From NCBI GenBank assembly GCA_022846075.1, contig AP025582.1:806001-870000 (forward strand): a stretch of 64,000 nucleotides of DNA. Direction: 5' to 3'. The stretch comes from Oscillospiraceae bacterium (GTDB taxonomy: Bacteria > Bacillota > Clostridia > Oscillospirales > Oscillospiraceae). The number at the start of each line of letters is the position of its first letter. The stretch's first letter is position 1. Positions 1 to 15,147 of this stretch are shown in pieces. The position numbers and the translations under genes were made by a program. The notes under the pieces were generated by a model that ran no database searches, had not been told where the DNA came from, and saw only the letters and a list, made by a program, of their open reading frames with translations.

Positions 1-16
1 TAGAGACAAAAAGGTG

Positions 17-140
17 TTGCTTTTTGTCGAATGAGACGGTATGATTTGAGCATAAAAGATTGTATACAACGAAAATACAAAAGAGGCAAAAGGAAAATCA
101 ATCTCAACAAGCAATTTTTTAAAGCCAAAATTGTATACAA
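17..140 (+). promoter_or_regulatory. Promoter with twin GntR-type palindromic operators
   Basis: The leader before the first gene is AT-rich. TTGCTT (17-22), 17 bases, then TATGAT (40-45) is a plausible sigma-A promoter. Two perfect copies of the 10-base palindrome TTGTATACAA lie at 60-69 and 131-140, 71 bp apart. Palindromes centred on GTATAC are typical operators of FadR/FCD-type GntR regulators. The first copy would sit just after the transcription start, so repression is the simplest reading. No regulator gene is adjacent inside the window. Confidence 0.6.
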
Positions 141-192
141 GTGGTATCCAATCTAAAGCAAAAGGGTCAATATTTGAAGGAGGTAAATTAAA

Positions 193-1395
193 ATGGCAGA
201 TTTGAGAGTTACGGTGAACGGTGTCACATTCCCCAACCCCGTGATCGTGGGTTCCGCGTCTCCCTCCATGGATTGGATCGGTGTGAAAAAGGGCATCGAG
301 GGCGGCTCCGGCGGCGTGATCGTCAAGTCCCTGTTCGGGGAGAAGGGCCGTCTGGGCCGCAGCTTCCCCCGTCCTCGCTTCAAGCTCTATGACTACAAGA
401 ACTATCCCGGCTACCCCGAGAAGCTGCCCCACGCCTTCACGCTGAACTCCCTGGAGGAGTGCTCCCACTTCGGCTATCAGGAGTACATGGAGGACGTGAA
501 CAAGGCCAAGGACGCCGTGGGTGATAAGGGCATCGTCATGGCCAGCCTCTCCGGCGTCACCCTGGACGAGTGGGAAGAGATGGTGGGCCTGGTCAACGAG
601 ACCAACGCCGACTGGGTGGAGCTCAACGTCTCCTGCCCCTTTGCCGCCGACATGGGCGTGAAGATGGGCGCCGGCGCCGTGGATATGACCGCCGACGTGG
701 TCCGCACCTGCGCCAAGCTGCTGAAGAAGCCCTTCAGCGTCAAGGTCTCTCCCCAGACTGTGGACCAGTCCAGCGTGGCTCTGGCCTGCCAGGAGGCCGG
801 CGCCCAGTGCATCAACCTCTCCGCCCGTTTCTCCGGCTTCGATCTGGACATCGACCAGGCCCGTCCCGTGGGCCCCGGCGCCCAGGGCGGCTGGGGCGGC
901 CCCTACTTCATCGGCTACGGCCTGAAGAATGTGGCCATCGCCGCCAAGAAGCTCAGCGTGCCCATCATTGCCGGCTTGGGCGTGTGGGATTGGCGCGATA
1001 TCATCAAATATACCATGGTGGGCGCCCATCTGGTGCAGTCCGGCGTGGGTATCATGCTCCAGGGCTACGACGTGGCCAAGAAGTGGAACGAGAACATCAG
1101 CCAATGGCTGGACGCCCGGGGCTACAGCTCCCTGGACGACATCCGCGGCATGGCCCTGCCCAACGTGCTGAAGACCGCCGAGGTGGAGCGGGCTCCCGAG
1201 GGCGTGTACGGCAAGGTGGATTATGAGAAGTGCACCAAGTGCGGCGTGTGCAAGCGCAGCTGCTTCTACGACGCCATCACCCTCACCAAGTGCGGCGCCG
1301 TCATCGACCAGCACAAGTGCGACGGCTGCGGCATGTGCATGGAGGTCTGCCCGGTCAACGCCGTGAGCATGACTTCCGCCCAGCATCGGGTCTGA
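193..1395 (+). CDS. PreA-like FMN/Fe-S dihydropyrimidine-dehydrogenase-family oxidoreductase
   Basis: A 400-residue cytoplasmic flavoprotein: an FMN-binding TIM barrel of the dihydroorotate/dihydropyrimidine dehydrogenase family fused to a C-terminal ferredoxin domain. The NVSCP motif places the family's catalytic cysteine at residue 148. Two CxxCxxCxxxC motifs (cysteines 347-357 and 376-386) should hold two [4Fe-4S] clusters. AAGGAGGT lies eight bases before the ATG. Known relatives (PreA) reduce uracil or thymine with a PreT partner, but there is no PreT or pyrimidine gene here. It is followed 31 bp later by a fumarate-reductase-type flavoprotein, so the two may form an electron-transfer pair acting on the unknown substrate of this operon. 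The family is certain; the substrate is not. Confidence 0.85.
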   Translation: MADLRVTVNGVTFPNPVIVGSASPSMDWIGVKKGIEGGSGGVIVKSLFGEKGRLGRSFPRPRFKLYDYKNYPGYPEKLPHAFTLNSLEECSHFGYQEYMEDVNKAKDAVGDKGIVMASLSGVTLDEWEEMVGLVNETNADWVELNVSCPFAADMGVKMGAGAVDMTADVVRTCAKLLKKPFSVKVSPQTVDQSSVALACQEAGAQCINLSARFSGFDLDIDQARPVGPGAQGGWGGPYFIGYGLKNVAIAAKKLSVPIIAGLGVWDWRDIIKYTMVGAHLVQSGVGIMLQGYDVAKKWNENISQWLDARGYSSLDDIRGMALPNVLKTAEVERAPEGVYGKVDYEKCTKCGVCKRSCFYDAITLTKCGAVIDQHKCDGCGMCMEVCPVNAVSMTSAQHRV

Positions 1396-1426
1396 TTTTC
1401 AAAACGACCGCCGGGAGGGTGAGGAA

Positions 1427-3052
1427 ATGAGAGAGATACGCTGCGACGTCCTGGTGGTGGGCGGCGGCGCCGCCGGCAGCCGGGCCGCCTACGAGGCCAA
1501 ACGGGCCCACCCCGAGCTGGAGGTGATGCTGGTCGTCACCGGCAGTTTTGAGGCCGGCGGCAGCACCAACATGGTGGCCTCCGAGGCCCTGGGCATCAAC
1601 GCCCCCTTCGACTATGAGAAAGACGGGGACGACCCGGAGGTCTACCTCATGGACACCCTGGAGACCGGCGGCGGCCTGGGGGACCCGGCGCTGTGCCGGG
1701 TCCTGGCCCAGGAGTCGGCCGACCGGGTGGGGGAGCTGATGGACCTGGGGGTCCGGTTCATCCGGGAGGGGGACCACCCCCAGCAGCAGAAGCTCTCCGG
1801 CTGTACCAAGGCCCGCAGCCTCACCTGCGGCGGGAGCACCGGGCGGCAGATCACCGCCTGCCTCAAGGCGGCGGCTCAGGAGCGCAACGTGACCATCCTG
1901 GAGGACACTCAGATCGTGAAGCTCCTCCAGGACGGGAACGGGCGGGTGACGGGCGCCGCCGGGATCTGCCGGGGAAAGCCCACCCTCTTCCGGGCCGGGG
2001 CGGTGGTCCTGGCCACCGGCGGGGCGGGGAGCATCTTCTCCGTAAACGTCACGCCCCCCAGCCAGACCGGGGACGGCTGGGCCATGGCCTACGAGGCGGG
2101 CTGCCGGTTTGTGAACATGGAGTTTTTCCAGATCGGTCCCGCTGTGGCCAAGCCCGGATTCCAGTTCATCATCCACAGCCACATGTGGCGCTTCCTCCCC
2201 AAGCTGACCAACCGGGATGGGGAGGAATTCCTGGCCCGGTACTGCCGGGACGGGGTCACCCCCGAGCGGGCGCTGGAGCTCAAGGCCATGTCCTACCCCT
2301 TCTCGGTGCGCACCGACGCCAAGTACGTGGACATCGCCGTGTTCCAGGAGTTGGCGGCGGGCCGGGGCGGCCCCAACGGCGGTGTTTTCTTCGACGTGAC
2401 CCACGTGTCCAGGGAAGAGCTGCTGGAGAAGGCCCCCATCACCTATCACACGCTGCTGAAGGCCGGCATCGACTGCGCCGGAGAGCCCCTGGAGCTGACC
2501 ATGGCGGTGCAGAACTTCAACGGCGGCATCCTCATCGACGGGAACGGCTTCACCGGCGTGGAGGGCCTCTACGCCGCCGGGGAGATCACCGGCGGCGTCC
2601 ACGGCTCCGACCGGCCGGGGGGCAACAACCTGACGGACACCCAGGTCTTCGGATACCGGGCGGGCCGGGCGGCGGCGGATGCCGCGGCCCAGGCCAGGCC
2701 CAGCTTCGCCGGGGACGCTCTGGAAGGGCTGGAGCTGGAAGTCCTCCCTGGGGAGCGTTCGCTGGTGAAGGAGAGCGAGGAGCTCTATTACCGGGAACTG
2801 ACGGTAGTGCGGCGGGAGGAAGGGCTGAAAAAGGTCCTGGACTTTGTGGACGCCCACCTCCGCCCCGGCATCTCCGTACCGCTTTACAACCGGCTGCTTC
2901 TGGGGCGGCTCTTCGCCACGGCGCAGCTGGCCCGGACTGAGAGCCGGGGGACCCACTACCGGGAGGACTGCCCGGAGACCGACCCCGCCTGGCGGCGGAG
3001 GATGGTCTATCAAAAGGGCCCCGCCGGGGAGCCGGTCCTCTGCAAGGAATAG
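1427..3052 (+). CDS. FAD-dependent oxidoreductase, fumarate reductase/succinate dehydrogenase flavoprotein type
   Basis: A 541-residue FAD_binding_2-family protein. The N-terminus has the dinucleotide-binding GGGAAG motif after a short beta strand (about residues 8-18). The middle carries ATGGAG, and the C-terminal FAD contact is visible as GLYAAGE followed by GGVHGSDRPGGNNL (about residues 385-405). It has no signal peptide and no haem sites, so it is a soluble cytoplasmic enzyme, unlike secreted fumarate reductases. It probably reduces or oxidises a C-C bond next to a carboxylate. It lies between the PreA-like gene and the first RraA gene in one tight run. The ATG follows GGGAGGGTGAGGAA. 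Its exact substrate cannot be read from the sequence. Confidence 0.85.
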   Translation: MREIRCDVLVVGGGAAGSRAAYEAKRAHPELEVMLVVTGSFEAGGSTNMVASEALGINAPFDYEKDGDDPEVYLMDTLETGGGLGDPALCRVLAQESADRVGELMDLGVRFIREGDHPQQQKLSGCTKARSLTCGGSTGRQITACLKAAAQERNVTILEDTQIVKLLQDGNGRVTGAAGICRGKPTLFRAGAVVLATGGAGSIFSVNVTPPSQTGDGWAMAYEAGCRFVNMEFFQIGPAVAKPGFQFIIHSHMWRFLPKLTNRDGEEFLARYCRDGVTPERALELKAMSYPFSVRTDAKYVDIAVFQELAAGRGGPNGGVFFDVTHVSREELLEKAPITYHTLLKAGIDCAGEPLELTMAVQNFNGGILIDGNGFTGVEGLYAAGEITGGVHGSDRPGGNNLTDTQVFGYRAGRAAADAAAQARPSFAGDALEGLELEVLPGERSLVKESEELYYRELTVVRREEGLKKVLDFVDAHLRPGISVPLYNRLLLGRLFATAQLARTESRGTHYREDCPETDPAWRRRMVYQKGPAGEPVLCKE

Positions 3053-3069
3053 AAAAGAGGGAATACCTT

Positions 3070-3735
3070 ATGTCCAATTTTGACGCGGAGCGCCGCCGCA
3101 GGTTTGAGGCGCTCTCCACCACCAATGTCTCCGACGCCATGGACGCCCTGGGCATCCGGGGCGCCACCTATGGCATCCGCCCCATGTGGCACACCATGGA
3201 CAGGGTCCTGGGCCCCGCCGTCACCCTGAAGATGACGGCGGCGGGGGAGACCAAGGGAAAGTACCACCTGGGGGTCAAGGCCATCGACGCGGCCCGGTCC
3301 GGGGACGTGATCGTGGTGGACAACGGCGGCCGGATCGACACCTCCTGCTGGGGCGGCGTCCTGGCCACCGGAGCCAAGCTGAAAGGGATCTCCGGCGTGG
3401 TCATCGACGGTGCCTGCCGGGATCTGGACGAGTGCGTGGAAGTGGGCTTCTCCGTCTACGCCCGGGGCACCGTGGTGGCCACGGCCCGGGGCCGGGTCCA
3501 GGAGGAGGCCACCAACGTGATGGTCCAGTTCGGCGGGGTGCAGGTGCGCCCCGGAGACATCATCATGGGCGACAAGAGCGGCGTGGTGGTGGTCCCGGCC
3601 GAGCGGGTGGACGAGGTCCTGGAAAAGGCCGAGTCCCTTTTCCAAAAAGAGGAGGCCATGGTGGCCATGATCCGGGAGGGCAAGACCATGACGGAAATGG
3701 ACGACGCCTTCCAATATGAAAAAATGCTCAAATAG
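3070..3735 (+). CDS. RraA family protein (HMG/CHA aldolase-like), copy 1
   Basis: A 221-residue RraA-fold protein. The family includes 4-hydroxy-4-methyl-2-oxoglutarate and 4-carboxy-4-hydroxy-2-oxoadipate aldolases, which also decarboxylate oxaloacetate, and the RNase E inhibitor RraA. The aldolase signature is present: DNGGR (about residues 84-88), a glycine-rich stretch, then DGACRD with Arg117-Asp118, the residues that bind substrate and metal in true aldolases. Firmicutes lack a classical RNase E and this gene sits in a catabolic operon, so a lyase role is far more likely than RNase inhibition. It starts 17 bp after the flavoprotein gene and is one of three paralogues here. Confidence 0.82.
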   Translation: MSNFDAERRRRFEALSTTNVSDAMDALGIRGATYGIRPMWHTMDRVLGPAVTLKMTAAGETKGKYHLGVKAIDAARSGDVIVVDNGGRIDTSCWGGVLATGAKLKGISGVVIDGACRDLDECVEVGFSVYARGTVVATARGRVQEEATNVMVQFGGVQVRPGDIIMGDKSGVVVVPAERVDEVLEKAESLFQKEEAMVAMIREGKTMTEMDDAFQYEKMLK

Positions 3736-3791
3736 AAGAGAGCGGTAGACGGGTCTCCGGAGTGCGGGCAGAGAAAAGGAGGACCCCACGG

Positions 3792-5750
3792 ATGAAATTG
3801 TTCCGCAGGAAAGCAGAAACAACGGACGGCGAGCCTGAGAAGCAGGCCGTCGTGACCAAGCGAAACCTGACGGGTGTACTGGAAAAGGTCGCCACGGCGG
3901 CCTGCGTCATCGGGGTCGTGTTCCAGCTTTACAACGCGGGTTTCGGCGTGATGACTGAGATCCAGCTGCGCGCGTTCCACTGGATGTACATTGGGTTTTT
4001 AGGCTTTTTACTTTACGGGTTCAACCCGTCCCGGCACACGGACAAAGTCCCCGTCTACGACATCATCTGCGCGCTCCTGACAGCGGGATGCTGTATCTAC
4101 CTGTTCCTCTCCTGGGACCGCATCGCCCGCAACTTCGGCTTCATCAACACGGTGGATACGGTGGTGGGCGTGGTCCTGGTCCTGCTGGTGCTGGAGCTGA
4201 CCCGGCGGGCCATCGGCATGCCCCTTGTGATCATTTCCCTGCTGTTCCTTCTCTACGCGTTTTTGGGCGGACACATCACGGGACTGTTCGCCAGCAAGGA
4301 TTTCACCCTCAACCAGGTTATCCGCACCCTCTTCGCCAGCACCGACGGCATCTTCGGCATGCCCATCGGCGTGTCGGCCTCCTACGTGGTGCTTTTCATC
4401 CTCTTCGGCTCCTTCCTGCAGGAGTCGGGGGGCGGCGAGCTCTTCACCGACGTGGCCTTCGGTCTGGTGGGGCGGTACCGGGGCGGGCCGGCCAAGGCCT
4501 CGGTGGTGAGCAGCTGCCTCTTCGGCATGATCTCCGGGGCGGCGGTGGCCAACGTGGTCACCACGGGCACCTTCACCATCCCCCTGATGAAAAAGGGCGG
4601 GTATAAGGATCATTTTGCCGGCGCGGTAGAGGCGGTGGCCTCCTGCGGCGGGCAGTTCATGCCCCCCATCATGGGGGCGGCCGCCTTTATGATCGCCACC
4701 AACTGCGACGTGCCCTACGGCGTGGTGGCCATCTCCGCCATCGTGCCCGCCCTGCTGTATTACTTCTACCTCTTCTTGTGCCTGGACATGGAGGCCAAAA
4801 AGACCGGGCTCAAGGGCCTGCCGGCCGAGGAGCTCCCCTCCGTCAAAGGGGCGCTGAAGGCCAGGGGCCACATGCTGATCCCCCTGGTGGTCCTCATTGC
4901 CCTGCTGGTGAGCGGCTATTCCCCGGGCAAGTCGGTGTTCTGGAGCATCCTGCTCCTCATCGCCACCGCCGCCCTCCGGAAAAACACCCGCATGGGCTGG
5001 AAGAGCATCGTCCGGGCCATCCGCAACGGTGTGTACGGCGCCTCGGCCGTGGCCATCGCCTGCGCCTGCGCTGGCATCATCTCGGGGGTCATCTCCCTCA
5101 CCGGTTTGGGCCTGCGCTTCTCCTCCATCCTGATCCAGCTCTCCGGCGGCCATCTGCTCGTCATGCTGGCGCTGACCATGCTGGCGGCCATCATCATGGG
5201 CATGGGCCTGCCCACCTCGGCGGCCTACGTGATCCTCTCCGTGCTCACCAGTCCCGCCCTCATCTCCCTGGGCGTGGAGCCCCTGGCCGCGCATTTCTTC
5301 ATTTTCTTCTTCGCCTGCATCTCCACCATCACTCCGCCTGTGGCCCTGTCGGCCTACGCCGGGGCCGGCATCGCCGGAGCCGACCCCATGAAGACGGGCT
5401 GGACCGCCTTCATGTTGGGGCTGGCGGGCTACATCGTGCCCTACCTGGTGGTCTATAAGCCCAGCATCATGCTGGTGGGGACCCCCGTTCTCCCGTCGCT
5501 GATCGACGTGACCTTCTCCGTGGTGGCCGTCGTCAGCATGACCTTCGCGGTGGCCGGCTTCCTGGGCAGGAAGCATCTTGCCGTCCCCCTGCGCCTGGCC
5601 TTCGCGGTGTTCAGCGCCATGATCTTTCTGGACACCGGGAACCTGGCCGATCTGATCGCCACGGCGCTTTTCCTGGGGCTGTGGCTGGCCCTGAACCTGT
5701 ATCAGCGCAAAAAATCCGGCGATGGAAGTCCACCTCTGGCCGCGGCATAG
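3792..5750 (+). CDS. Fused TRAP transporter permease (4TM/12TM), copy 1
   Basis: A 652-residue integral membrane protein joining a DctQ-like N-terminal four-helix part to a DctM-like large permease, the fusion typical of TRAP systems using TAXI binding proteins. Hydrophobic helices run throughout, and the conserved loop GMGLPTSAAYV is visible in the second half. I chose ATG 3792 because AAAGGAGG lies eight bases upstream; the in-frame ATG at 3762 has no good ribosome site and would add ten charged residues. Its partner TAXI lipoprotein follows 29 bp later. Such systems use a sodium gradient to import organic acids. Confidence 0.92.
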   Translation: MKLFRRKAETTDGEPEKQAVVTKRNLTGVLEKVATAACVIGVVFQLYNAGFGVMTEIQLRAFHWMYIGFLGFLLYGFNPSRHTDKVPVYDIICALLTAGCCIYLFLSWDRIARNFGFINTVDTVVGVVLVLLVLELTRRAIGMPLVIISLLFLLYAFLGGHITGLFASKDFTLNQVIRTLFASTDGIFGMPIGVSASYVVLFILFGSFLQESGGGELFTDVAFGLVGRYRGGPAKASVVSSCLFGMISGAAVANVVTTGTFTIPLMKKGGYKDHFAGAVEAVASCGGQFMPPIMGAAAFMIATNCDVPYGVVAISAIVPALLYYFYLFLCLDMEAKKTGLKGLPAEELPSVKGALKARGHMLIPLVVLIALLVSGYSPGKSVFWSILLLIATAALRKNTRMGWKSIVRAIRNGVYGASAVAIACACAGIISGVISLTGLGLRFSSILIQLSGGHLLVMLALTMLAAIIMGMGLPTSAAYVILSVLTSPALISLGVEPLAAHFFIFFFACISTITPPVALSAYAGAGIAGADPMKTGWTAFMLGLAGYIVPYLVVYKPSIMLVGTPVLPSLIDVTFSVVAVVSMTFAVAGFLGRKHLAVPLRLAFAVFSAMIFLDTGNLADLIATALFLGLWLALNLYQRKKSGDGSPPLAAA

Positions 5751-5779
5751 CCGCGAGATTTCATTGAGGAGGTTTCACA

Positions 5780-6802
5780 ATGAAAAACGGGAAATTGCGC
5801 GCTTGCTCCATCCTGCTGGCAGGCAGTATGCTGTTCCTCACCGCCTGCGGCGACAAAACGGCGGCACAGTCCGCCGGACCGGAGGCATCCGGAGCGCCCT
5901 CCCAGGCGGCCGCACCGGCGCCGGGAGATCAGGTCTTTTCCCTGGTGACGGCCAGCCTGGGCGGGACCTACTACATCGTGGGCTCCGGCCTGGCGGAGGT
6001 CCTCTCCCAGAACGTGGACGGGCTGACGGTGAACAACGTGGTCTCCCAGGGCTCCACCGCCAACGCCATCAAGGTGGGCACCGGGGAATCCGAGCTGGGC
6101 ATCACCAACTACTACTCCGGCCTGCGGGCCCTGGAGGGCACCGAGCCCTTCGACCAGTCCTACGACATTATGGGCATCTGCACCCTTCAGTACAGCATCA
6201 TCCAGTTCAACTCCCTGGCCAATCAGAACATCACCAAGATGACCGATTTGAAGGGTAAACGGGTCTCCATCGGCCCCGCCGGCGGTGGGGGAGCCCTCAT
6301 TTTTGAGGAGATCCTGCCCTATTGGGATATGAACATGGATGACATGAACGTCAGCTACATGTCCTACGCCGACGGCGGCGAGGCCCTCACCGACGGCCGC
6401 ATCGACGTGAACGTCCCCCACGGCGCGCCTCCCCTGGAGGCCATCTCCACCGTGGCGGTCACCAACCCCATCAATATCATCAGCATGGAGCCCGAGGTGC
6501 TGGAAAAGATCTCGGAGGACCTGCCCTACTATGACGCCGCCGTCATCCCCGGCGGCACCTACGCCGGGCTGGATGAGGACATCACCTCCCTGGGCGTCCA
6601 GGACATCCTGGTCTGCCGCTCCGACATGGACGAGGAGACGGTCTATCAGATCACCAAGGCCATCTACGAGCATCTGGAGTACCTCCACTCCATTCACGCC
6701 TCCCTTGCGGGCATGGACTTCGAGGGATACAAGGACTCCCTTGTCCCGCTGCACCCCGGCGCCAAGCGTTTCTATGAGGAAAAAGGCCTGAAACTGGACT
6801 GA
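5780..6802 (+). CDS. TAXI-family TRAP transporter solute-binding lipoprotein, copy 1
   Basis: A 340-residue extracytoplasmic binding protein. The first 23 residues form a lipoprotein signal ending in the lipobox LTAC, so the mature protein is anchored by its cysteine. A linker rich in Ala, Ser and Pro follows, then the TAXI fold with GGTYYIVGSGLAEVL near the start of the mature domain and the KRVSIGPAGGG loop. TGAGGAGG precedes the ATG. It lies directly after the first fused permease and 37 bp before a second TAXI gene. Known TAXI ligands include glutamate and dicarboxylates; the ligand here is unknown. Confidence 0.9.
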   Translation: MKNGKLRACSILLAGSMLFLTACGDKTAAQSAGPEASGAPSQAAAPAPGDQVFSLVTASLGGTYYIVGSGLAEVLSQNVDGLTVNNVVSQGSTANAIKVGTGESELGITNYYSGLRALEGTEPFDQSYDIMGICTLQYSIIQFNSLANQNITKMTDLKGKRVSIGPAGGGGALIFEEILPYWDMNMDDMNVSYMSYADGGEALTDGRIDVNVPHGAPPLEAISTVAVTNPINIISMEPEVLEKISEDLPYYDAAVIPGGTYAGLDEDITSLGVQDILVCRSDMDEETVYQITKAIYEHLEYLHSIHASLAGMDFEGYKDSLVPLHPGAKRFYEEKGLKLD

Positions 6803-6839
6803 GTCAGGAAAATTTGAAATGAAAAAGGAGCTGTCTATT

Positions 6840-7883
6840 GTGAAACACAGAAAAATCTCGGCCCTTCTCGCGCTGACCCTGACCCTCTCCCTGGCGCTGA
6901 GCGCCTGCGGAAACGACAAGCCCCAGCCCTCCGCCTCTGCCTCTGCCGGCGGCGAGCCCTCCGCCCCCGCCTCCGCGGCTCCCGCCCCCGCCGTTACCGA
7001 CATCGCCATCGGCACCGCCGCCTCCGGCGGCGCCTGGTATCCCATCGGCGCCGTCATGTCCGACATCGTCTCCACCTCCGACCTGGGCATCTCCGCCACG
7101 GTGCAGACCACCGGCGGCGGCGTGGAGAACTGCAAGCTCACCAACAACGGCGACTGCGAGCTGTCCATCACCATCGGCTACCTGGCCTACAACGCCCAGA
7201 ACGGCATCGACCCTTACGAGGGGGCCCAGATGGACAACATCAGCTGCCTCTTCGGCGGGCTGTCCGTGGGCGTGATGCAGGTGGTCCTGCCCGGGAACTC
7301 CGACGTCCATACCTTTGCCGACCTGAAGGGCAAAAAGGTGGCCGTGGGCCCCGCCGGCGGCGGCGCCATCACCTGCCTGTCCGCCTGTCTGGAGATGGAG
7401 GGCGTGGCCTACTCCGAGATCACCCCCACCTACGTCAGCTATGACGAGGGCGTGACCATGATGACCGACGGCCACGTGGACGCCGCCATCGTCTACGGCG
7501 GCATCCCCACCTCCGCCGTGTCCACCCTGGTGGCCAGCCAGACCGACTTCCGCCTGCTCACCCTCACCGCCGAGGAGCAGGCCGCCCTTCTGGAGGAGTA
7601 TACCTACTTCGTGCCCGTCACCGTTCCCGCCGACATGTACAGCCTGGGGGAGGACGTACTCACCATCGGCACCCCCAACGTGGTCATCGTCAGCTCCGAT
7701 ATGCCCGAGGATACGGTCTATGACCTGTGCGCCCTCTTCTTCACCGACGAGAACCTGGAGAAGATCCAGGGCTCTCAGCCCTCCGCCAAGGGCCTGACCC
7801 TGGAGAAGGCCGCCACCCAGACCTCCATCCCCCTGCATCCCGGCGCTGAGAAGTACTTCAGAGAAAAGGGCCTGCTGGACTGA
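6840..7883 (+). CDS. TAXI-family TRAP transporter solute-binding lipoprotein, copy 2
   Basis: A 347-residue TAXI binding lipoprotein with lipobox LSAC (cysteine about residue 23). I chose GTG 6840 because AAGGAG (6825-6830) lies nine bases upstream. An in-frame ATG at 6819 would add seven residues and has only a weak AGGAA site; both remain possible. A low-complexity Ala/Ser/Pro linker follows the cysteine, then the TAXI domain with GGAWYPIGAVMSDIV and the KKVAVGPAGGG loop. It is clearly paralogous to the preceding gene but diverged, so the two may bind different ligands. A strong hairpin separates it from the second permease gene. Confidence 0.88.
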   Translation: MKHRKISALLALTLTLSLALSACGNDKPQPSASASAGGEPSAPASAAPAPAVTDIAIGTAASGGAWYPIGAVMSDIVSTSDLGISATVQTTGGGVENCKLTNNGDCELSITIGYLAYNAQNGIDPYEGAQMDNISCLFGGLSVGVMQVVLPGNSDVHTFADLKGKKVAVGPAGGGAITCLSACLEMEGVAYSEITPTYVSYDEGVTMMTDGHVDAAIVYGGIPTSAVSTLVASQTDFRLLTLTAEEQAALLEEYTYFVPVTVPADMYSLGEDVLTIGTPNVVIVSSDMPEDTVYDLCALFFTDENLEKIQGSQPSAKGLTLEKAATQTSIPLHPGAEKYFREKGLLD

Positions 7884-7909
7884 GAAGGGTCCGGCACCCC
7901 AACCCCGCA

Positions 7910-7950: not shown

Positions 7951-7970
7951 ATTCCAAAGGATGGTGAATT

Positions 7971-9875
7971 ATGGAGTCCAAATCCAAACTGCCGCTGATC
8001 GCCCAGCGGGTGGCCAGCATTCTGCTCATCGCCAGTTCTTTCTTTGCCCTGTATACCTCTGGCTTTGGCCTTTTGTCCGCCATGACCCAGCGGAGCGTCC
8101 ACTGGTTTTTCATGATCGTGGCCATCTTCCTGCTCTATCCCATGCGCAAGAGCCGGGAGGTGGGGGTGGTGGATCTGCTGCTGGCCCTGCTGGCGGCGGC
8201 GTCCACCCTGTACGTCACCTTCACCTGGGAGCGAAACGCCCTGCGCATTGCCGACCCGGCGATCTGGGAGATCGCCCTGTGCGTGCTGGGCATCATGCTG
8301 GTGCTGGAGGCCACCCGCCGTTCCATGGGCATGGCCATGCCCATCATCGCCATCATCGCGCTGGCCTATGCCTTCCTGGGGCCGTACATGCCCGGGGCGC
8401 TGAAGCATAAGGGCTTTTCCATCAGCAGCCTCGCCTCCTTCATCTACACCACGTCGGAGGGCATTTTCGGCATGGCCATGGGCACCTCGGCCACCTATAT
8501 CATCGTATTCGTCCTCTTCGGCTCCTTCCTGGCCAAGTCGGGGGCGGGCCAGCTCTTCGTGGACCTGTCCCTTGCGGCCACCGGCCGGAAGCGCAGCGGC
8601 CCCGCCCAGGCCACCATCTTGTCCAACGCCCTCATGGGGATCATCTCCGGCTCCCCCGTGGCGAACGTGGTGACCACGGGCTCCTTCACCCTGCCCCTGC
8701 TGCGCTCGGCCAAGTACCCCATGGTGGAGGGGGCCTCCATCCTGGCGGTGGCGGCCACCGGCTCCATGTTCACCCCGCCGGTGATGGGGGCCGCGGCCTT
8801 CCTCATCGCCGACTACCTGTCCGAACCCTATGGAAACGTGGTGCTGGCGGCCGTGGTGCCCGCGCTGCTCTTCTATCTGAGCCTGGTGATCTATGCCGAC
8901 ATCACCGCCGCGAAAAACGGCCTCACCGGCCTGAAGCGGGAGGACCTGCCCGACTGGAAGGCCGCCTTCCTGGACCGGGGCCAGCTGCTCATCCCCATCG
9001 TGCTGCTCATCGTCCTCATCGTCAACGGCTGGAGCGCGCTGAAGTCGGCCTTCTGGTGCGTCATTCTCATCGTGGTCCTGGCCATGATCAAAAAGAGCAC
9101 CCGGATGAACCTCACCGGCATCAAAGATGCCCTGGTGGCGGGCTCGAAGGACACGCTGTCCATCGCCGCCGCCTGCGCCTGCGCCGGCATCATCGTGGGC
9201 GTGGTCTCCGCCACCGGGCTGGGGGTCAAGTTCTCCAGCCTCCTGATGCAGATCGCGGGCAACAGCCCCATCCTGGCCCTCTTCCTCACCATGGTGGCGG
9301 CCATCATCATGGGCATGGGCCTGCCCCCCACGGCGGTGTACATCATCATGGCGGCGCTCACGGTGCCCGCCCTCACCGGCATCGGTATCGCCCCCATGGC
9401 CGCCCACTTCTTCGTGTTCTACTTCTCCTGCGTGGGCGCCATCACGCCCCCGGTGGCTCTGGCGGCCTATTCCGCCTCCGCCGTGGCCCATACGGATCCA
9501 TTCAAAACAGGGTGGACCGCCTTCCGCATGGGGTTGGTGGCCTACATCATCCCCTACATCTTCGCGTTTAACCCCGTCCTGCTCCTGCAGGGCGGCGGAA
9601 ATATCCTGGAGACCGTTCTGGCCCTGGCCACCGCGGTTATCGGCGTGTTCTTCTTCACCTTTGCCTCGGAGGGGTACTGCAAAGGCTGGCTCCATCCCAT
9701 CCCCCGGCTCCTCTTCCTGGGCGGGGCCGTGTGCATGATGATCCCCGGCGTGGTCACCGACGCGGCGGGTGTGGCCATCCTCGCGGTGGGATTGGTGCTG
9801 GGGAGGTTCCTCAAGGGCAGTCCCCCGGCGAAAAAAGCGGCGGCGGAAGAGCCGGCCGAGCAGAAGGAGGTATAA
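7971..9875 (+). CDS. Fused TRAP transporter permease (4TM/12TM), copy 2
   Basis: A 634-residue multi-pass membrane protein paralogous to the permease at 3792-5750, with the same order of DctQ-like and DctM-like parts and the loop GMGLPPTAVYI in the second half. The C-terminus ends in a short charged, alanine-rich cytoplasmic tail. The ATG follows AAAGGATGGTGA. The gene order permease, TAXI, TAXI, permease gives two complete but oppositely ordered TRAP-TAXI units. They may have arisen by duplication and may import related acids for the enzymes encoded around them. The UbiD gene starts 7 bp after its stop. Confidence 0.92.
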   Translation: MESKSKLPLIAQRVASILLIASSFFALYTSGFGLLSAMTQRSVHWFFMIVAIFLLYPMRKSREVGVVDLLLALLAAASTLYVTFTWERNALRIADPAIWEIALCVLGIMLVLEATRRSMGMAMPIIAIIALAYAFLGPYMPGALKHKGFSISSLASFIYTTSEGIFGMAMGTSATYIIVFVLFGSFLAKSGAGQLFVDLSLAATGRKRSGPAQATILSNALMGIISGSPVANVVTTGSFTLPLLRSAKYPMVEGASILAVAATGSMFTPPVMGAAAFLIADYLSEPYGNVVLAAVVPALLFYLSLVIYADITAAKNGLTGLKREDLPDWKAAFLDRGQLLIPIVLLIVLIVNGWSALKSAFWCVILIVVLAMIKKSTRMNLTGIKDALVAGSKDTLSIAAACACAGIIVGVVSATGLGVKFSSLLMQIAGNSPILALFLTMVAAIIMGMGLPPTAVYIIMAALTVPALTGIGIAPMAAHFFVFYFSCVGAITPPVALAAYSASAVAHTDPFKTGWTAFRMGLVAYIIPYIFAFNPVLLLQGGGNILETVLALATAVIGVFFFTFASEGYCKGWLHPIPRLLFLGGAVCMMIPGVVTDAAGVAILAVGLVLGRFLKGSPPAKKAAAEEPAEQKEV

Positions 9876-9881
9876 ACGGCT

Positions 9882-11237
9882 ATGTCCAACAAAGATCTGC
9901 GCAGTTTTTTGAAAGAGGCCGAGGCCCACGGCGAGCTGGCCCACATCAAGGAGCACCTGGACCCCAAGTTCCAGGCCTCGGCGGTGCTGGCCAAGCTGGA
10001 GAAGGAGGAGCGCTATCCGGCGTGCCTCTTTGAAAACGTGGGGGACGGGGCCTATCCTGTGGTGAGCAACCTCTTCGCCAGCCGCAAGCGGCTGGCCCTG
10101 GCCCTGGGCTGTGAGGAGCCGGAGCTCAACGCGGTCTACCGGGAGCGGGAGGATAAGCGCATCGAGCCCGTCATGGTGCCGGACGGCCCCGTGCAGGAGG
10201 TGGTCCTCACCGGGGACGACATCGACCTGACCAAGTTCCCCATCCTCACCCACAACGCCCTGGACGCCGGCCCTTACGTGACCTGCGGCGCCTCGGTGAC
10301 CAAGGACCCGGACACCGGCATCCGCAACATCGGCGTCTACCGCCACCAGCTCCACGGCAAGAACAAGCTGGGCATCCACATGTCGGAGGCCAGCCACGTC
10401 AACTACATCTACGGCAAGTATGAGGCCCAGGGCAAGGACATGCCCATCGCCATCACCATCGGCCACCATCCCGCCTTCTATCTGGGCTGCCTGAGCTTCG
10501 TGCCCGTGGGCGTGGACGAGTACGGCGTGGCGGGCGCCCTCATGGGCGCGCCCCTGGAGCTTGTCAAGTGCAAGACCTGCGACCTGGAGGTGCCGGCGGA
10601 CGCCGAGATCGTCCTGGAGGGCTACGTCAGCGCCACCGAGCGGCAGATGGAGGCCCCCTTCGGGGAGTTTACCACCATGTACGGCGGGCCCCACATGTAC
10701 CACGTGGTCACCGTCACCGCCATCACCATGCGGAAGAAGCCCATCTACCTGGACTGCTTCTCCGGCCACCTGGACCACCAGCTCCTGGGCGGCACCGGCC
10801 GGCTCAGCGTCATTTACAAGACCGTCCGCATGGCCTGCCCCACGGTGAAGGACGTCTTTATGGCCCCCTCCGGCTGCTGCCGGATGAGCTGCTACGTCTC
10901 CATCCACAAGCGCCACGAGGGGGAGGCCAAAAACGTCATCGGCGCCGTGCTGGCCTCCGACCCCTTCATCAAGTACGTGGTGGTGGTGGACGACGACGTG
11001 AACATCTTCAGCGACAGCGCCGTGATCCTGGCCATCGCCACCCGGCACCACCCGGAGCAGGACGCCTTTATGATCAAAAACGCCAAGGGCCACCCCCTGG
11101 ACCCCACCGCCTATAACGGCTATGTGGTCACCAAGGTGGGCATCGACGCCACCAAGCCCCTGAAGGACTTCCCCGAAACGGTGGAGGTGCCGGGAACGGA
11201 CGAGGTGGATCTGGACCGCCTGCTGGGCGGCATGTGA
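9882..11237 (+). CDS. UbiD-family prenyl-FMN-dependent decarboxylase
   Basis: A 451-residue UbiD/Fdc-type (de)carboxylase. Residues can be matched by spacing to the Aspergillus Fdc1 active site: Asn149, His172 and Glu213 for the metal and prenyl-FMN phosphate, and Arg154, Glu257 and Glu262 as the E-R-E catalytic triad (NIGVYR and EAPFGEF motifs). All six are present, so it should be catalytically competent. Family members decarboxylate alpha,beta-unsaturated or aromatic acids and need prenyl-FMN made by UbiX, which is not in this window. AAGGAGG overlaps the end of the permease gene. Next to an aconitase-X dehydratase, it could decarboxylate the alkene acid that enzyme makes; the substrate is inferred only. 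Confidence 0.88.
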   Translation: MSNKDLRSFLKEAEAHGELAHIKEHLDPKFQASAVLAKLEKEERYPACLFENVGDGAYPVVSNLFASRKRLALALGCEEPELNAVYREREDKRIEPVMVPDGPVQEVVLTGDDIDLTKFPILTHNALDAGPYVTCGASVTKDPDTGIRNIGVYRHQLHGKNKLGIHMSEASHVNYIYGKYEAQGKDMPIAITIGHHPAFYLGCLSFVPVGVDEYGVAGALMGAPLELVKCKTCDLEVPADAEIVLEGYVSATERQMEAPFGEFTTMYGGPHMYHVVTVTAITMRKKPIYLDCFSGHLDHQLLGGTGRLSVIYKTVRMACPTVKDVFMAPSGCCRMSCYVSIHKRHEGEAKNVIGAVLASDPFIKYVVVVDDDVNIFSDSAVILAIATRHHPEQDAFMIKNAKGHPLDPTAYNGYVVTKVGIDATKPLKDFPETVEVPGTDEVDLDRLLGGM

Positions 11238-11250
11238 GGAGAGAGACAGC

Positions 11251-11865
11251 ATGAGCGATATCATTGAGCGTTATAACCGCCTGCCCCTGGGGAACATCTG
11301 CGACGCCAACGACCGCCGGGGCAGCATGGACCCCGCCATCAAGCCGGTGGACCCAACCTCCCGTGTGGCGGGCCCGGCCTATACGGTCCGCTGCCACCCC
11401 GGGGACAACCTGGCCATCCACAAGGCCATCGCGGAGGCCCCGGCGGGCTCCGTGCTGGTCATCGACGCCGGGGGCTTTACAGGCGGGGGCCACATCGGGG
11501 AGATCATGTGCTTTGCCTGTATGCAGCGGGGCATCAAGGGGCTGGTCATCGACGGCACCTGCCGGGACGCCGACGACATCCAGGCCCTTGGCTTCCCCGT
11601 CTTTACCCGGGGCTTCAACCCCAACGGCACCGTAAAGGAGACCGTGGGCGTGACGGATGTGCCCATCCTCTGCGGCGGGGTGCGGGTCTGCCCCGGTGAC
11701 CTCATCGTGGGCAGCCGGGACGGCGTGGCGGTGGTGGAACAGGAGAAGATCGGGGAGATCCTGGCCAAGGCCGAGGCCATCGCCGCCAAGGAGGACCGGG
11801 TGGTGGAGGAGCTCAAGCAGGGCAGGACCACCGCCGAGATCTATCAGTTTGAAAAAATCCTCTGA
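11251..11865 (+). CDS. RraA family protein (aldolase-like), copy 2
   Basis: A 204-residue RraA-fold protein, the most diverged of the three copies. The DGTCRD motif gives Arg105-Asp106, equivalent to the substrate/metal pair of HMG/CHA aldolases. The usual NGGR is replaced by DAGGFTGGG, suggesting a different substrate geometry from copies 1 and 3. It starts 13 bp after the UbiD gene and ends 18 bp before the next RraA gene, so the three are surely cotranscribed. A lyase or decarboxylase acting on a 4-hydroxy-2-oxo acid or oxaloacetate-like product is the best guess. Confidence 0.82.
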   Translation: MSDIIERYNRLPLGNICDANDRRGSMDPAIKPVDPTSRVAGPAYTVRCHPGDNLAIHKAIAEAPAGSVLVIDAGGFTGGGHIGEIMCFACMQRGIKGLVIDGTCRDADDIQALGFPVFTRGFNPNGTVKETVGVTDVPILCGGVRVCPGDLIVGSRDGVAVVEQEKIGEILAKAEAIAAKEDRVVEELKQGRTTAEIYQFEKIL

Positions 11866-11883
11866 GGAAAGGAAGAAGATCGG

Positions 11884-12555
11884 ATGGCTAACGAGCTTAT
11901 TACCGACGAGATGGTAGAGGCGTTCCGTCTTCTGGACACCTGCTGCCTGTCGGACGCCATGGACCGGCTGGGCATCCCCTGCGGCCTTCTGGGCATCAAA
12001 CCTGTGAACCCGGACTCCACCCTGTGCGGACGGGCCTTTACGGTCCGCTATGTGCCCTGCGGCACCGTCCACGGCACGGTGGGCGACTTTCTGGACGACG
12101 TGAAGCCCGGCGAGGTGGTGGTCATCGACAACGGCGGCCGGACCTACGCCACGGTGTGGGGCGACCTCATGAGCATCACCGCCACCCGGATGGGGGTGGG
12201 GGGCACCGTGATCGACGGCGTCTGCCGGGACATCCCCACCATCCACAAGCTGGGCTACAACATTTTCAGCAAGGGCTGCTACATGGTCACCGGGAAGGAC
12301 CGGGTGGAGGTGGATGCCATCAACGTCCCCGTGTCCGTCTCCGGCGTGCGGGTGGCCCCGGGCGACCTGATGGTGGGAGACGCCACCGGCGTGGTGGTGG
12401 TCCCCCAGGAGCGGGCCGCCCAAGTCCTGGAGGTGGCCAATGAGATCGCCGCCAAGGAAGCGAAGATCGAGGAGAACGTGGCCAAGGGGATGACCCTGCG
12501 CCAGGCCCGGGAACAGGTCCATTATCACAATCTTCAAACGCGCGAGGACAGCTGA
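11884..12555 (+). CDS. RraA family protein (aldolase-like), copy 3
   Basis: A 223-residue RraA-family protein with DNGGR (about residues 82-86) and DGVCRD (Arg115-Asp116), so the aldolase active-site signature is intact. It resembles copy 1 more than the adjacent copy 2. The ATG follows GAGGAAAGGAAG. Adjacent different RraA genes suggest either a hetero-oligomer or two sequential cleavages. An aconitase-X gene begins 32 bp downstream. I see no truncation or frameshift. Confidence 0.82.
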   Translation: MANELITDEMVEAFRLLDTCCLSDAMDRLGIPCGLLGIKPVNPDSTLCGRAFTVRYVPCGTVHGTVGDFLDDVKPGEVVVIDNGGRTYATVWGDLMSITATRMGVGGTVIDGVCRDIPTIHKLGYNIFSKGCYMVTGKDRVEVDAINVPVSVSGVRVAPGDLMVGDATGVVVVPQERAAQVLEVANEIAAKEAKIEENVAKGMTLRQAREQVHYHNLQTREDS

Positions 12556-12587
12556 GCCGCCCGCGGGAGAGACAGGAGGAAAACAGT

Positions 12588-13802
12588 ATGCGTTTGACCG
12601 CGGAAGAGCAGAAAATGCTGGACGGCGCCTACGGCGAGACCGTCAAACGGTCCATGAAGGTACTGGTGGCGCTGGGGGAGATCTACGGCGCCGACCATAT
12701 GATCGAGATCAAAAACGTCCACTCCCCCGGCGTGAGCTACCGGGTGGCGGGCAACGCGGGGCTGGGCTATGTGGAGGACGCCAGCAAGGACGCCACCTTC
12801 CGGGTGCCCCTGACCCTGAACACCATCGGCATCGACGCCCAGGACTGGGAAAAGATCGGCTTCCCGGAGGAATTTGCCCGCAAGCAGCTGGAGCTGAGCG
12901 AGGCATATGAGCGGATGGGGGCCATCCCCACCAACAGCTGCACCCCCTACCTGAACGGCAACCTGCCCATGTTCGGGGAGCATGTGGCCTGGGGCGAGTC
13001 CTCCGCCGTGGCCTTTGTCAACTCGGTCATCGGCGCGCGCACCAACCGGGAGGGCGGGCCCACCGCCCTGGCCGCCGCTATCACCGGCCGGGTGCCGGCC
13101 TACGGCTACCACCTGGACGAGAACCGGAAGGGCACCCATCTTATCCGGGTGGAGATGGAGCTGAAGACCGACAAGGACTTCGCCGTGCTGGGCTACTTCG
13201 GCGGCAAGCTGGCGGGGAAGGACGTGCCCGTCATCGAGGGGATCACCCGCCGCCCCACCCTGGAGAACTTCAAGGCCCTGGGGGCCGCCCTGGCCTCCGC
13301 CGGGGCCGTGGCCCTCTACCACGTGGTGGGCTTTACCCCGGAGGCTCCCACCCGCCAGGCCGTCATCGGCGACGACGTGGAGCCGGTGATCTTCGACCAG
13401 GCGGCCTACGACAAGGTGTGCGCCAAGTTCAGCCTGAAGGGGAACGTGGATTTCGTGGTCCTGGGCTGTCCCCACGTGTCCATCGTGGAGTTCGAGGAGA
13501 TCGCGAACCTGGTCCGGGGCAAAAAGCTCAAAAGCGCCCTTTGGGTGTGCACCTCCCGCATGGTGCGGGACCTGGCGGACCGGATGGGCTTTGTCAAGGA
13601 CATCGAGGATGCCGGCGGCGAGATCGTCTGCGACACCTGCCCGGTGCTCTGCGCCACACTGACCCAGCGGGGCTACAAGACGGTGGCCACCAACTCCGGC
13701 AAGATGGCCCATTACGCGCCGGGGCTTTGGAAGCTGCAGCCGGTGCTGCTCAATACCTGGGAGTGCATCCAGACGGCCATCGACGGAAAGTGGGGGGAGT
13801 AA
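12588..13802 (+). CDS. Aconitase X large (catalytic) subunit
   Basis: A 404-residue member of the AcnX/DUF521 catalytic family. Conserved cysteines fit an iron-sulfur site: Cys118 in NSCTPYL, Cys294 in GCPH, and Cys348/Cys351 in CDTCP. The next gene encodes the small swivel subunit, so this is a two-subunit (type II) enzyme. Characterised relatives dehydrate cis-3-hydroxy-L-proline in bacteria and mevalonate 5-phosphate in archaea, where a UbiD decarboxylase acts next. The pairing with UbiD here echoes that archaeal logic, but there are no mevalonate or proline genes nearby. It should dehydrate a beta-hydroxy acid; the substrate is unknown. AGGAGG lies nine bases before the ATG. Confidence 0.88.
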   Translation: MRLTAEEQKMLDGAYGETVKRSMKVLVALGEIYGADHMIEIKNVHSPGVSYRVAGNAGLGYVEDASKDATFRVPLTLNTIGIDAQDWEKIGFPEEFARKQLELSEAYERMGAIPTNSCTPYLNGNLPMFGEHVAWGESSAVAFVNSVIGARTNREGGPTALAAAITGRVPAYGYHLDENRKGTHLIRVEMELKTDKDFAVLGYFGGKLAGKDVPVIEGITRRPTLENFKALGAALASAGAVALYHVVGFTPEAPTRQAVIGDDVEPVIFDQAAYDKVCAKFSLKGNVDFVVLGCPHVSIVEFEEIANLVRGKKLKSALWVCTSRMVRDLADRMGFVKDIEDAGGEIVCDTCPVLCATLTQRGYKTVATNSGKMAHYAPGLWKLQPVLLNTWECIQTAIDGKWGE

Positions 13803-13804
13803 CC

Positions 13805-14224
13805 GTGAGTCAGGAAAAACTGCTTCAGGGCCGGTGCATCGTAGAGGGCCAGGTGGAGGGGGAGGCGCTGGTGACCAACGACGCCATCTCCTTCATGGGC
13901 ACCATCGACCCCAAGACCGGCTATGTCATCGAGCGCAAGCACGAGATCGAGGGGGCCTGCCTCAAGGGGAAGATCCTGGTTTTCCCCATGTCCAAGGGTT
14001 CCACCGGCGGGTCCTATATGCTCTATGATCTGGTGAAAAACGGCGTGGGCCCCCTGGGGATCGTCAACCGGGAGGCTGAGTCCATCGTGGTCATCGGCGC
14101 CATCGTCTCCGGCCTCCCCATGGTGGACCGGATCGACATCTCCCAGATCCAGACGGGGGACTACATCTATCTCAACGCTACGGAGGGCACGGTGCAGGTG
14201 GTTCCCAAAGCCATGCGGGCCTGA
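13805..14224 (+). CDS. Aconitase X small (swivel) subunit
   Basis: A 139-residue DUF126-type swivel domain, the partner of the preceding catalytic subunit. The motif FPMSKGSTGGSYML (about residues 60-73) is the family hallmark and contributes active-site serines. It starts at GTG 13805, only 2 bp after the stop of the large-subunit gene, with a GGGGGGAG ribosome site inside that gene's end. Tight coupling implies a stoichiometric complex. Most gene callers seeking only ATG would miss or shorten it. Confidence 0.88.
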   Translation: MSQEKLLQGRCIVEGQVEGEALVTNDAISFMGTIDPKTGYVIERKHEIEGACLKGKILVFPMSKGSTGGSYMLYDLVKNGVGPLGIVNREAESIVVIGAIVSGLPMVDRIDISQIQTGDYIYLNATEGTVQVVPKAMRA

Positions 14225-14237
14225 CGGGGGCGGCGGC

Positions 14238-15128
14238 ATGGGAGGATTTTTCGCGCTGATCAATGCCGCCGGATGGAGCATCGGAATGGTCTTTGCCCGG
14301 CGCGGCCAGCAGACCGGGCGGCTGGATACCCTGACGGGGCTCTATACGACCTTGATCGTCAACAGCGCGCTGAATCTGCTGCTGCTTCTGGGCACCCTCC
14401 TCTTTTCCACCCTGCCCGAGCTCAACGCCGTGGGGATGCTCTGCCTGGTCCTGGGGGGCGTGTTCAACAGCCTCATCGGCCGGGGGCTCCTGTTCTGCTC
14501 CATCGCCCGGATCGGGGCGGCCCGGGCCGGGGTGGTGAAGGCCTCCACGCCGGTCTTTGCCCTGCTGGGCGGGGTGTTCCTCCTCAAGGAGGTGGTGCGT
14601 CCCGTCCAATGGCTGGGGATCACCGTTGTCCTGGGTGGCGTGGTCATCATCTCCCTGGACGCGGTGCGCCGGGAGGGGAAGCAGGCCGGCGCGGTGTCCA
14701 TGGGCGGCGTGGCCATCGGTGTGGTGGCCAGCCTTTTTCTGGCGGCGGGAAACATCTGCCGGAAGCTGGGGGTCCAGCACATCCCCAACTCCGCGCTGGG
14801 GGTGACGGTGGGGTCGGTGAGCGCCGCCGCCGTGCTCACCGTGTTCCTCCTGCTGCGCGGGCGGGGCGGAGACATGGCGAAGGCCCTCAAGCGCCTGGAC
14901 GGCAACTACGCCATGTCGGGCGTCTGCACCAGCTTCGCCCTCTTCTTCCTCTTTCACGCCCTGGAGCTCATCCCGCTGTCCATCGCGAATTCCCTCACCG
15001 CGCTGGAGCCGCTGTTCACCCTGATCTTCAGCGGGCTCCTGCTGGGCAGGCAGGAAAAGGTGACCTGGCAGACCGGCCTTGGGGCCGCGGCTACGGTCCT
15101 GGGGGCCATTATTCTGACCAGAACGTGA
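14238..15128 (+). CDS. DMT superfamily (EamA) transporter
   Basis: A 296-residue protein with about ten hydrophobic segments in two EamA repeats, the drug/metabolite transporter layout. It starts 13 bp after the aconitase-X small subunit gene with only a weak GGGGGCGG site, so it is probably translated by coupling as the last gene of the 15-kb run. A perfect 18-bp inverted repeat follows. It may export an end product of the pathway or import a substrate; DMT substrates cannot be predicted from sequence. Confidence 0.82.
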   Translation: MGGFFALINAAGWSIGMVFARRGQQTGRLDTLTGLYTTLIVNSALNLLLLLGTLLFSTLPELNAVGMLCLVLGGVFNSLIGRGLLFCSIARIGAARAGVVKASTPVFALLGGVFLLKEVVRPVQWLGITVVLGGVVIISLDAVRREGKQAGAVSMGGVAIGVVASLFLAAGNICRKLGVQHIPNSALGVTVGSVSAAAVLTVFLLLRGRGGDMAKALKRLDGNYAMSGVCTSFALFFLFHALELIPLSIANSLTALEPLFTLIFSGLLLGRQEKVTWQTGLGAAATVLGAIILTRT

Positions 15129-15147
15129 ATCAGATGCCGGGCAGCAG

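Follow-up and report, generated by a model that had tools for sequence, protein, structure and literature searches.

What does a bacterium do with an aconitase X (AcnX), a UbiD-family decarboxylase, three RraA-fold proteins, two redox proteins and two importers encoded in one tightly packed run? The question is raised by a 64,000-nucleotide stretch of an Oscillospiraceae bacterium genome (GCA_022846075.1, contig AP025582.1, positions 806,001 to 870,000 of the forward strand), referred to here as the window, in which 13 genes occupy positions 193-15128. As the initial annotation had described, all are of the families it named, lie on the positive strand and are tightly packed, with intergenic gaps (5′ to 3′) of 31, 17, 26, 29, 16, 87, 6, 13, 18, 32, 2 and 13 bp. 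Comparison with other genomes reveals a real conserved cluster whose core is AcnX plus three RraA proteins, around which UbiD, a PreA-like protein, redox partners and importers vary. The components belong to known families, and no description of the cluster was found in the open-licence literature searched. The core genes of the window are as follows.

3070-3735, + strand: RraA1, RraA fold by Pfam/NCBIfam, with Gly replacing Asp102
11251-11865, + strand: RraA2, similar to HMG/CHA aldolase
11884-12555, + strand: RraA3
12588-13802, + strand: AcnX type II large subunit
13805-14224, + strand: AcnX type II small subunit (DUF126), GTG start

The core was recognized by comparing 36 AcnX neighbourhoods, mostly of about 20 kb and some extended, cited here by locus number. 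Genes in the fetched loci were called with a simple codon-usage script, and their names come from BLAST against labelled genes or from inspection by eye, except where a Pfam or NCBIfam match is given; families in the window were assigned by Pfam/NCBIfam domain searches. In a tree that includes two solved structures, 12 AcnX proteins form one group (support 83/89, below the star mark of the tree tool), comprising group A (window, L036, L054, L084, L085 and L086; 100/100, starred) and group B (L037, L055, L056, L087, L088 and L089; 99/97, starred). Three RraA genes adjoin AcnX in 10 of these 12 loci, and an RraA gene is found in none of the 24 other neighbourhoods compared. A further 31 weaker AcnX loci (29 from a scan of the order, L051 from the class and L081 from the phylum) likewise lacked RraA in the roughly 1.5 kb of flank available for each (0/31). 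Both group loci without RraA, L054 and L089, have a contig end next to AcnX. The association also holds in the other direction: RraA1 (E ≤ 1e-45) occurs in six of 398 sampled phylum genomes, all six with a group AcnX in the same cluster, and these are among the seven genomes of the phylum sample with a group AcnX, the seventh being the contig-cut G783; the RraA1 and AcnX draws (398 each) look identical, their genomes being only partly listed.

The distribution of the cluster is sparse. With the AcnX large subunit as query, 30 of 295 genomes of the window genome's own order matched at E ≤ 0.001, including the window genome itself; the best E value elsewhere was 5.8e-40, and among these 295 genomes no close match was found except the window genome's own. 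Scans of the class and phylum returned 11 of 391 genomes at 1e-50 and 18 of 398 at 1e-70, respectively, and at a cut-off of 1e-92 the cluster was found in 2/20, 1/13 and 1/10 genomes of three other orders. A contig scan with AcnX peptide patterns, probably too specific, returned a single locus, a Clostridium record (AcnX 76%). A plasmid set held 160 records with an AcnX match, three neighbourhoods of which were compared: the Cupriavidus necator plasmid (AcnX 48%), and Burkholderia and Paroceanicella plasmid loci in which no RraA adjoins AcnX. Altogether, AcnX stands with three RraA genes in six further families of this phylum, the Clostridium record and the Cupriavidus plasmid, and thus recurs past close strains, one of the points on which the initial annotation had staked its proposal. 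Because the cluster is rare within orders and group A spans several families and classes, it has probably spread horizontally, mostly among Bacillota-type genomes. The G+C content of the run (65.2%) differs little from the 62.7-64.4% measured for other parts of the same genome, suggesting that its arrival here was not recent or that the donor was of similar composition.

The gene set as first proposed is conserved in part: AcnX with three RraA genes stands (10/12), and the remaining members are linked only in some loci. UbiD is linked (within about 15 kb) in eight of the 12 group loci and a PreA-like gene also in eight, in shuffled order, and a TAXI binding protein is present in four; elsewhere the transporters are of the Dct, Tct, Liv or DASS type, some of them identified by eye. 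Type A clusters (window, L084, L085 and L086) combine AcnX, three RraA, UbiD, a PreA-like protein and an SdhA-like flavoprotein with TAXI- or DctP-type importers. Type B clusters (L055, L056/L102, L087/L101 and L088/L104) combine AcnX and three RraA with a PreA-like protein of a second form, with proteins resembling LeuC/LeuD and homoisocitrate/isopropylmalate dehydrogenase, and with Tct- or Liv-type importers; MmgE/PrpD is present in two and UbiD in three. UbiX is present in five genomes (the window's and those of L085, L087, L103 and L104). The best UbiD of the Clostridium genome (38% identical) is unlinked to its core, and that of G783 (48%) lies on a contig separate from AcnX, next to TAXI genes and one resembling a class II aldolase (named from BLAST labels or by eye). 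L123 (2-8167) has a UbiD (48%), a PreA-like fragment, class II aldolase-like and DapA-like genes (by eye) and TAXI-TRAP genes, so that RraA may be replaceable by aldolases of different folds. Among the type B clusters, two apparently near-identical tandem NuoE/NuoF-like blocks (by eye, from the first residues) occupy L102 2280-5070 and 7357-10189, and on the negative strand of L101 (8672-10441) an isochorismatase-type protein adjoins one that matches 2,5-dihydroxypyridine dioxygenase weakly (E 0.025). Another isochorismatase-type gene lies at 3448-4140 in L086, a type A cluster.

The three RraA proteins of the window share 36-37% pairwise identity, and all are identical to 4-hydroxy-4-methyl-2-oxoglutarate/4-carboxy-4-hydroxy-2-oxoadipate (HMG/CHA) aldolase at Arg123, Asp124 and Glu199, residues whose roles are taken from the excerpts of PMC5065237. 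Across 30 complete copies from 10 clusters, Arg123 and Asp124 are kept in 30/30 and Glu199 in 29/30. RraA2 additionally carries Asn71 in 10/10 copies and the motif GTVKE in 7/10, and RraA3 has Asp at the Asp102 position in 10/10. In the RraA tree the RraA3 orthologues form a well-supported group (98/98) into which PDB 3k4i falls, and the RraA1 group is moderately supported (82/88), with the Cupriavidus copy outside it. A role as RNase E regulator was rejected for all three from their model scores (at most 80.4 bits against a cut-off of 136 for NF006875, and at most 48.6 against 241.25 for TIGR02998) and their linkage.

The AcnX large and small subunits are separate genes, as in type II enzymes, and the NCBIfam model NF051439 is matched in two parts by both; the small subunit also reaches the DUF126 model NF003046 (164.6 bits against a cut-off of 163). 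In alignment, the window AcnX is identical to TkAcnX at the iron-sulfur cysteines Cys110, Cys283 and Cys342 and at Glu129, Ser130, Ser131, Lys361 and Tyr365, and the Gly48-Val49-Ser50 phosphate loop of the type IIb mevalonate 5-phosphate (MVA5P) dehydratase is present. However, it fails the tested landmarks of both characterized AcnX functions: Asn53, the phosphate ligand in TkAcnX according to the excerpts of PMC8184944, is Val in all six group A rows, and the landmark Asp203 (AtAcnX numbering) of cis-3-hydroxy-L-proline (C3LHyp) dehydratase is Pro. The only NCBIfam match of the large subunit is the C3LHyp dehydratase model NF051439, at 301.6 bits against a cut-off of 700, and in the tree with two solved structures AtAcnX stands in a different subgroup, on a long branch. 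By exclusion, these residues and scores would place the window AcnX among the bacterial types IIc-IIf, the function of which is stated to be uncharacterized in the excerpts of PMC8184944 and PMC10040528.

The source genome holds two more AcnX clusters, neither with RraA. The second (L034, genome 714000-733900; 6770-11874) encodes a CaiB-like CoA transferase, a PrpF/4-oxalomesaconate tautomerase-like protein, small and large AcnX subunits and an AEC-type transporter (partly by eye), and the third (L035, genome 110500-130400; 5364-11375) has a DctP-type TRAP importer (by eye). Elsewhere, other AcnX subfamilies (L063, L064, L097 and L099) lie near MttB-, corrinoid-protein- or PanB-like genes or glycine-betaine-type transporters (by eye), and such varied neighbours suggest that AcnX may have several further functions.

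The remaining features of the run, with the sites that flank it, are listed here.

60-69, no strand: operator-like palindrome TTGTATACAA, copy 1, a possible site for a GntR-FCD regulator
131-140, no strand: operator-like palindrome TTGTATACAA, copy 2
193-1395, + strand: PreA-like protein of dihydroorotate dehydrogenase (DHODH) fold with a C-terminal 2x[4Fe-4S] ferredoxin domain (DHO_dh and Fer4)
1427-3052, + strand: SdhA/NadB-like flavoprotein (FAD_binding_2 / Frd-SdhA-like, by Pfam/NCBIfam)
3762-5750, + strand: fused tripartite ATP-independent periplasmic (TRAP; DctM) permease 1, judged TAXI-type by its neighbours
5780-6802, + strand: TAXI binding protein 1
6819-7883, + strand: TAXI binding protein 2
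7971-9875, + strand: fused TRAP (DctM) permease 2, judged TAXI-type by its neighbours
9882-11237, + strand: UbiD-family decarboxylase (TIGR00148), nearest solved relative HmfF
14238-15128, + strand: EamA/DMT transporter (EamA domain match)
15147-15189, + strand: terminator-like hairpin with a 20-bp stem, 3′ of the last gene

The UbiD protein scores 404.9 bits with TIGR00148 (cut-off 244.85). Its best solved chain is 6h6v at 331.6 bits, whereas E. coli UbiD reaches 230.4; 6h6v is named HmfF in the excerpts of PMC8988006. In the alignment to 6h6v, with 41% identity over 434 positions, its E-R-E residues are intact, the Arg lying in RNIGVYR and both Glu in EAPFGE, so that the active site is in place as first annotated. 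His296 and Arg304 of HmfF, which we presume to act in diacid binding, are also kept. Both redox enzymes of the initial annotation are present and can be identified more closely: one is a ferredoxin protein of DHODH fold, the other a flavoprotein of the SdhA/NadB kind in which two substrate-site motifs of that family are missing. The former scores 205.3 bits with the PreA model NF006183, under the cut-off of 335; the Cys of its ELNVSCP motif and the eight cluster cysteines of two ferredoxin motifs are kept in 5/5 type A copies from four loci. The protein is a possible ferredoxin-linked C=C reductase. In the latter, 4/4 orthologues have QIGP or QVGP in place of QFHP and QNFNGG or QSFNGG in place of HYxxGG, and all four keep the Arg of HGxxRxxxN. 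We take QFHP and HYxxGG to be the substrate-site His motifs of fumarate reductase, SdhA and L-aspartate oxidase, and because both are lost the protein is probably not a fumarate reductase. The TAXI proteins match solved TAXI proteins at 85-131 bits, and relatives of the EamA protein occur in the L054 (38%) and L084 (41%) clusters. Downstream of the terminator-like hairpin lies a RecQ-like gene (by eye), and farther on (18920-20347, negative strand) a protein that looks by eye like a fusion of a CcdA-type membrane region with a thioredoxin-like domain.

The regulon is larger than the run, beginning about 1.8 kb upstream of the window. The preceding bases 786100-806000 of the single-contig, 3.23-Mb source genome (L033) encode at 18119-19770, directly upstream of the window, an LpdD-like protein (a PF21758 match, to which we assume the name LpdD applies; start placed at 18119), a UbiX (TIGR00421, 254.4 bits against a cut-off of 108.9) and a GntR-FCD regulator. 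After the regulator gene, 19786-19812 comprises a perfect inverted repeat rich in G+C and a stretch rich in T. A separate run farther upstream (L033 5127-17183) resembles hexuronate/2-keto-3-deoxygluconate (KDG) catabolism, with KduI-, KduD-, KDG kinase- and KDPG aldolase-like genes (by eye) and its own TRAP importer.

Perfect copies of TTGTATACAA occur only twice in the 64 kb, both 5′ of the run, against a chance expectation of 0.01, and a site with one mismatch lies at L033 18104, immediately 5′ of the LpdD-like gene. Similar sites adjoin the GntR genes of L055 (8872 perfect; 8165 and 8205 with one mismatch), L084 (12883, 12935 and 13657, each with one mismatch), L085 (8573, perfect) and L102 (15279 perfect; 14514 with one mismatch), so that GntR genes with such sites nearby occur in both cluster types. 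The chance expectations at up to one mismatch over the whole of L055, L084, L085, L102 and L033 are 1.25, 0.6, 0.5, 0.4 and 0.15, respectively, and several more matches in these loci stand away from the regulator; in L056, L086 and L088 no such site was found anywhere in the locus. These positions suggest that the GntR regulator may act at the TTGTATACAA sites as putative operators.

The genes of the run likely serve one catabolic pathway. That they form a single GntR-controlled regulon for an imported organic acid, with an AcnX/RraA core and the chemistry set out here, is a tentative reading to which we give somewhat less than an even chance. What the sequences show is gene content and its conservation, the co-occurrence of genes, active-site residues and recurrent operator-like sites; we infer a catabolic direction, an order of steps, a substrate class and a pairing of regulator with operator, and the regulon would probably be anaerobic. 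The TAXI-TRAP importers would take up a carboxylated substrate, from which UbiD would remove one carboxyl using prenylated flavin mononucleotide (prFMN) from the linked UbiX, the LpdD-like protein assisting. The two redox proteins of the run, PreA-like and SdhA-like, may adjust C=C bonds. AcnX would add or remove water at a tertiary β-carbon to give a 4-hydroxy-2-oxo polycarboxylate of the HMG/CHA type, and RraA2 would cleave this to pyruvate and a second 2-oxo acid; RraA1 and RraA3 could provide a further lyase or decarboxylase step, or form one hetero-oligomer with RraA2. Since the AcnX and RraA set is constant, their shared reaction pair should be the heart of the pathway. Substrates of AcnX IIb and of HMG/CHA aldolase share a tertiary hydroxyl β to a carboxylate, as can be gathered from the excerpts of PMC8184944 and PMC5065237, and the simplest link would therefore be that AcnX hydrates a branched, unsaturated oxo-acid, the hydrated product then being split by an RraA aldolase, with the UbiD, PreA-like and flavoprotein steps preparing the acid beforehand. 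Since the nearest solved relative of UbiD is HmfF, the carboxyl group may be lost before AcnX acts, and AcnX may work as a hydratase that supplies the lyases. This AcnX-then-RraA order is possible, at rather less than even confidence, and a substrate of the 4-oxalomesaconate/CHA type is doubtful. The PrpF-type protein adjoining the second AcnX of the genome, for which the 4-oxalomesaconate tautomerase model is best (319 bits against a cut-off of 440), is a weak independent hint for oxo-acid hydration by AcnX. The fullest version is speculative: the group AcnX would be a polycarboxylate hydratase and the three RraA an obligate hetero-oligomeric lyase of specialised subunits, which with UbiD and a ferredoxin-linked PreA-type reductase would break down (hetero)aromatic or branched polycarboxylates to pyruvate-type acids independently of O2 and CoA.

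Several observations weigh against this regulon and its chemistry. No UbiD lies near the core in L036, L037 or L056/L102, and no PreA-like gene near that of L036 (Clostridium) or L037 (Cupriavidus), so the chemistry of the 13 genes need not be one line. The joint node of AcnX groups A and B was not resolved in a first tree, although both groups were starred there, and L054 and L089 show no RraA across about 9 kb of their open side. RraA2, the best of the three, falls under both aldolase cut-offs (NF006731, 166.5 against 179 bits; TIGR02798, 142.9 against 304.5) and does not form one group, the L084 and L086 copies pairing and the Cupriavidus copy joining 3noj on long branches. RraA1 has Gly at Asp102 in 7/10 copies, and the fold has other activities, among them RNase E regulation and KDGR dehydratase/decarboxylase. 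Finally, no operator-like site adjoins the GntR genes of L036, L054, L087 or L104.

The initial annotation proposed that AcnX dehydrates a β-hydroxy acid, UbiD decarboxylates the resulting alkene acid and RraA splits a later hydroxy-oxo acid. The archaeal route pairs AcnX with a decarboxylase that has a UbiX partner (excerpts of PMC8184944), the AcnX group stands in an unresolved fork with the archaeal TkAcnX, and group A shares the G-V-S loop of TkAcnX. This order is nevertheless fairly unlikely, as HmfF, the solved protein nearest to UbiD, has a furan diacid as its substrate, and as the cores lacking UbiD keep AcnX and RraA together. The same resemblance to HmfF fits a heteroaromatic substrate, a furan-, pyrrole- or pyridine-type diacid that UbiD would decarboxylate and the PreA-like protein, of a fold related to dihydropyrimidine dehydrogenase, would dearomatize, the ring then opening to an unsaturated oxo-acid for AcnX to hydrate and RraA to cleave. 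The isochorismatase-type genes of two clusters and the dioxygenase match in one agree with such a substrate; however, that match is only E 0.025, no ring-opening hydrolase lies within the run, amidase model matches are weak (53.6 and 51.7 bits against a cut-off of 370), and the type B clusters hold LeuCD/isopropylmalate dehydrogenase-like proteins typical of aliphatic acids, making this unlikely. Alternatively, several short pathways may be transcribed together, with one substrate for the RraA/AcnX core and another for the UbiD/PreA part, as the L036 and L037 cores with neither UbiD nor PreA-like gene nearby, the two unlike importers of the window and the varying transporters among clusters would allow; the linkage of UbiD and PreA-like genes to the core in 8/12 loci each, in shuffled order, renders this quite improbable.

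Hydroxyproline catabolism and an archaeal-type mevalonate-phosphate branch for isoprenoids, suggested respectively by the sole NCBIfam match of AcnX and by the pairing of AcnX with UbiD, are both very improbable and were rejected, the mevalonate branch in agreement with the initial annotation, on residues, model scores and the ispG gene, with the tree as weaker support: the run holds no proline-metabolism gene and the Ser131 column is Ser in the window AcnX but Asn in AtAcnX, and it holds no kinase or other mevalonate enzyme, its importers and GntR-FCD regulator are present, and the genome encodes IspG of the methylerythritol phosphate (MEP) route (419.9 bits against a cut-off of 280.25).

In the open-licence full-text literature, no described pathway with this gene set was found, in line with the initial annotation, subscription journals lying mostly outside the search; no text joined aconitase X with UbiD, aconitase X with RraA, or TAXI with RraA and UbiD. 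The open-licence papers listed for AcnX, DUF521, aconitase X or DUF126 concern, in their accessible portions, hydroxyproline, archaeal metabolism, DUF surveys or unrelated subjects. The cluster gives the AcnX IIc-IIf family a recurring genetic context with candidate partners, a regulator and operator-like sites, through which the question of its function becomes testable. It also places prFMN decarboxylases in a new context, as it does the RraA fold, which is known in roles as different as RNase regulation, aldol cleavage and dehydration/decarboxylation.

Among known systems, the type II AcnX enzymes (IIa, C3LHyp dehydratases; IIb, MVA5P dehydratases; excerpts of PMC8184944 and PMC10040528) share with the window AcnX two subunits, the cluster cysteines and a Glu/Ser/Lys/Tyr site, whereas the window protein has neither the landmark Asp of C3LHyp dehydratase nor the phosphate-binding Asn of MVA5P dehydratase. 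The archaeal modified mevalonate pathway has AcnX and UbiD in common with the run, which differs in having importers and lyases in place of mevalonate enzymes, in a genome with a MEP gene. The furan-2,5-dicarboxylate decarboxylase HmfF/HmfG, a UbiD/UbiX system, is matched by the window UbiD and its linked UbiX, whereas the run has no genes of the hmfABCDE type. In the lower pathway of gallate/protocatechuate 4,5-cleavage, the hydratases are LigJ and GalB, and hydration is followed by an RraA-fold HMG/CHA aldolase acting on a tertiary 4-hydroxy-2-oxo acid. The run would follow the same logic without a dioxygenase or lactonase, with three RraA proteins, with UbiD and a PreA-like protein in addition, and with AcnX as the hydratase.

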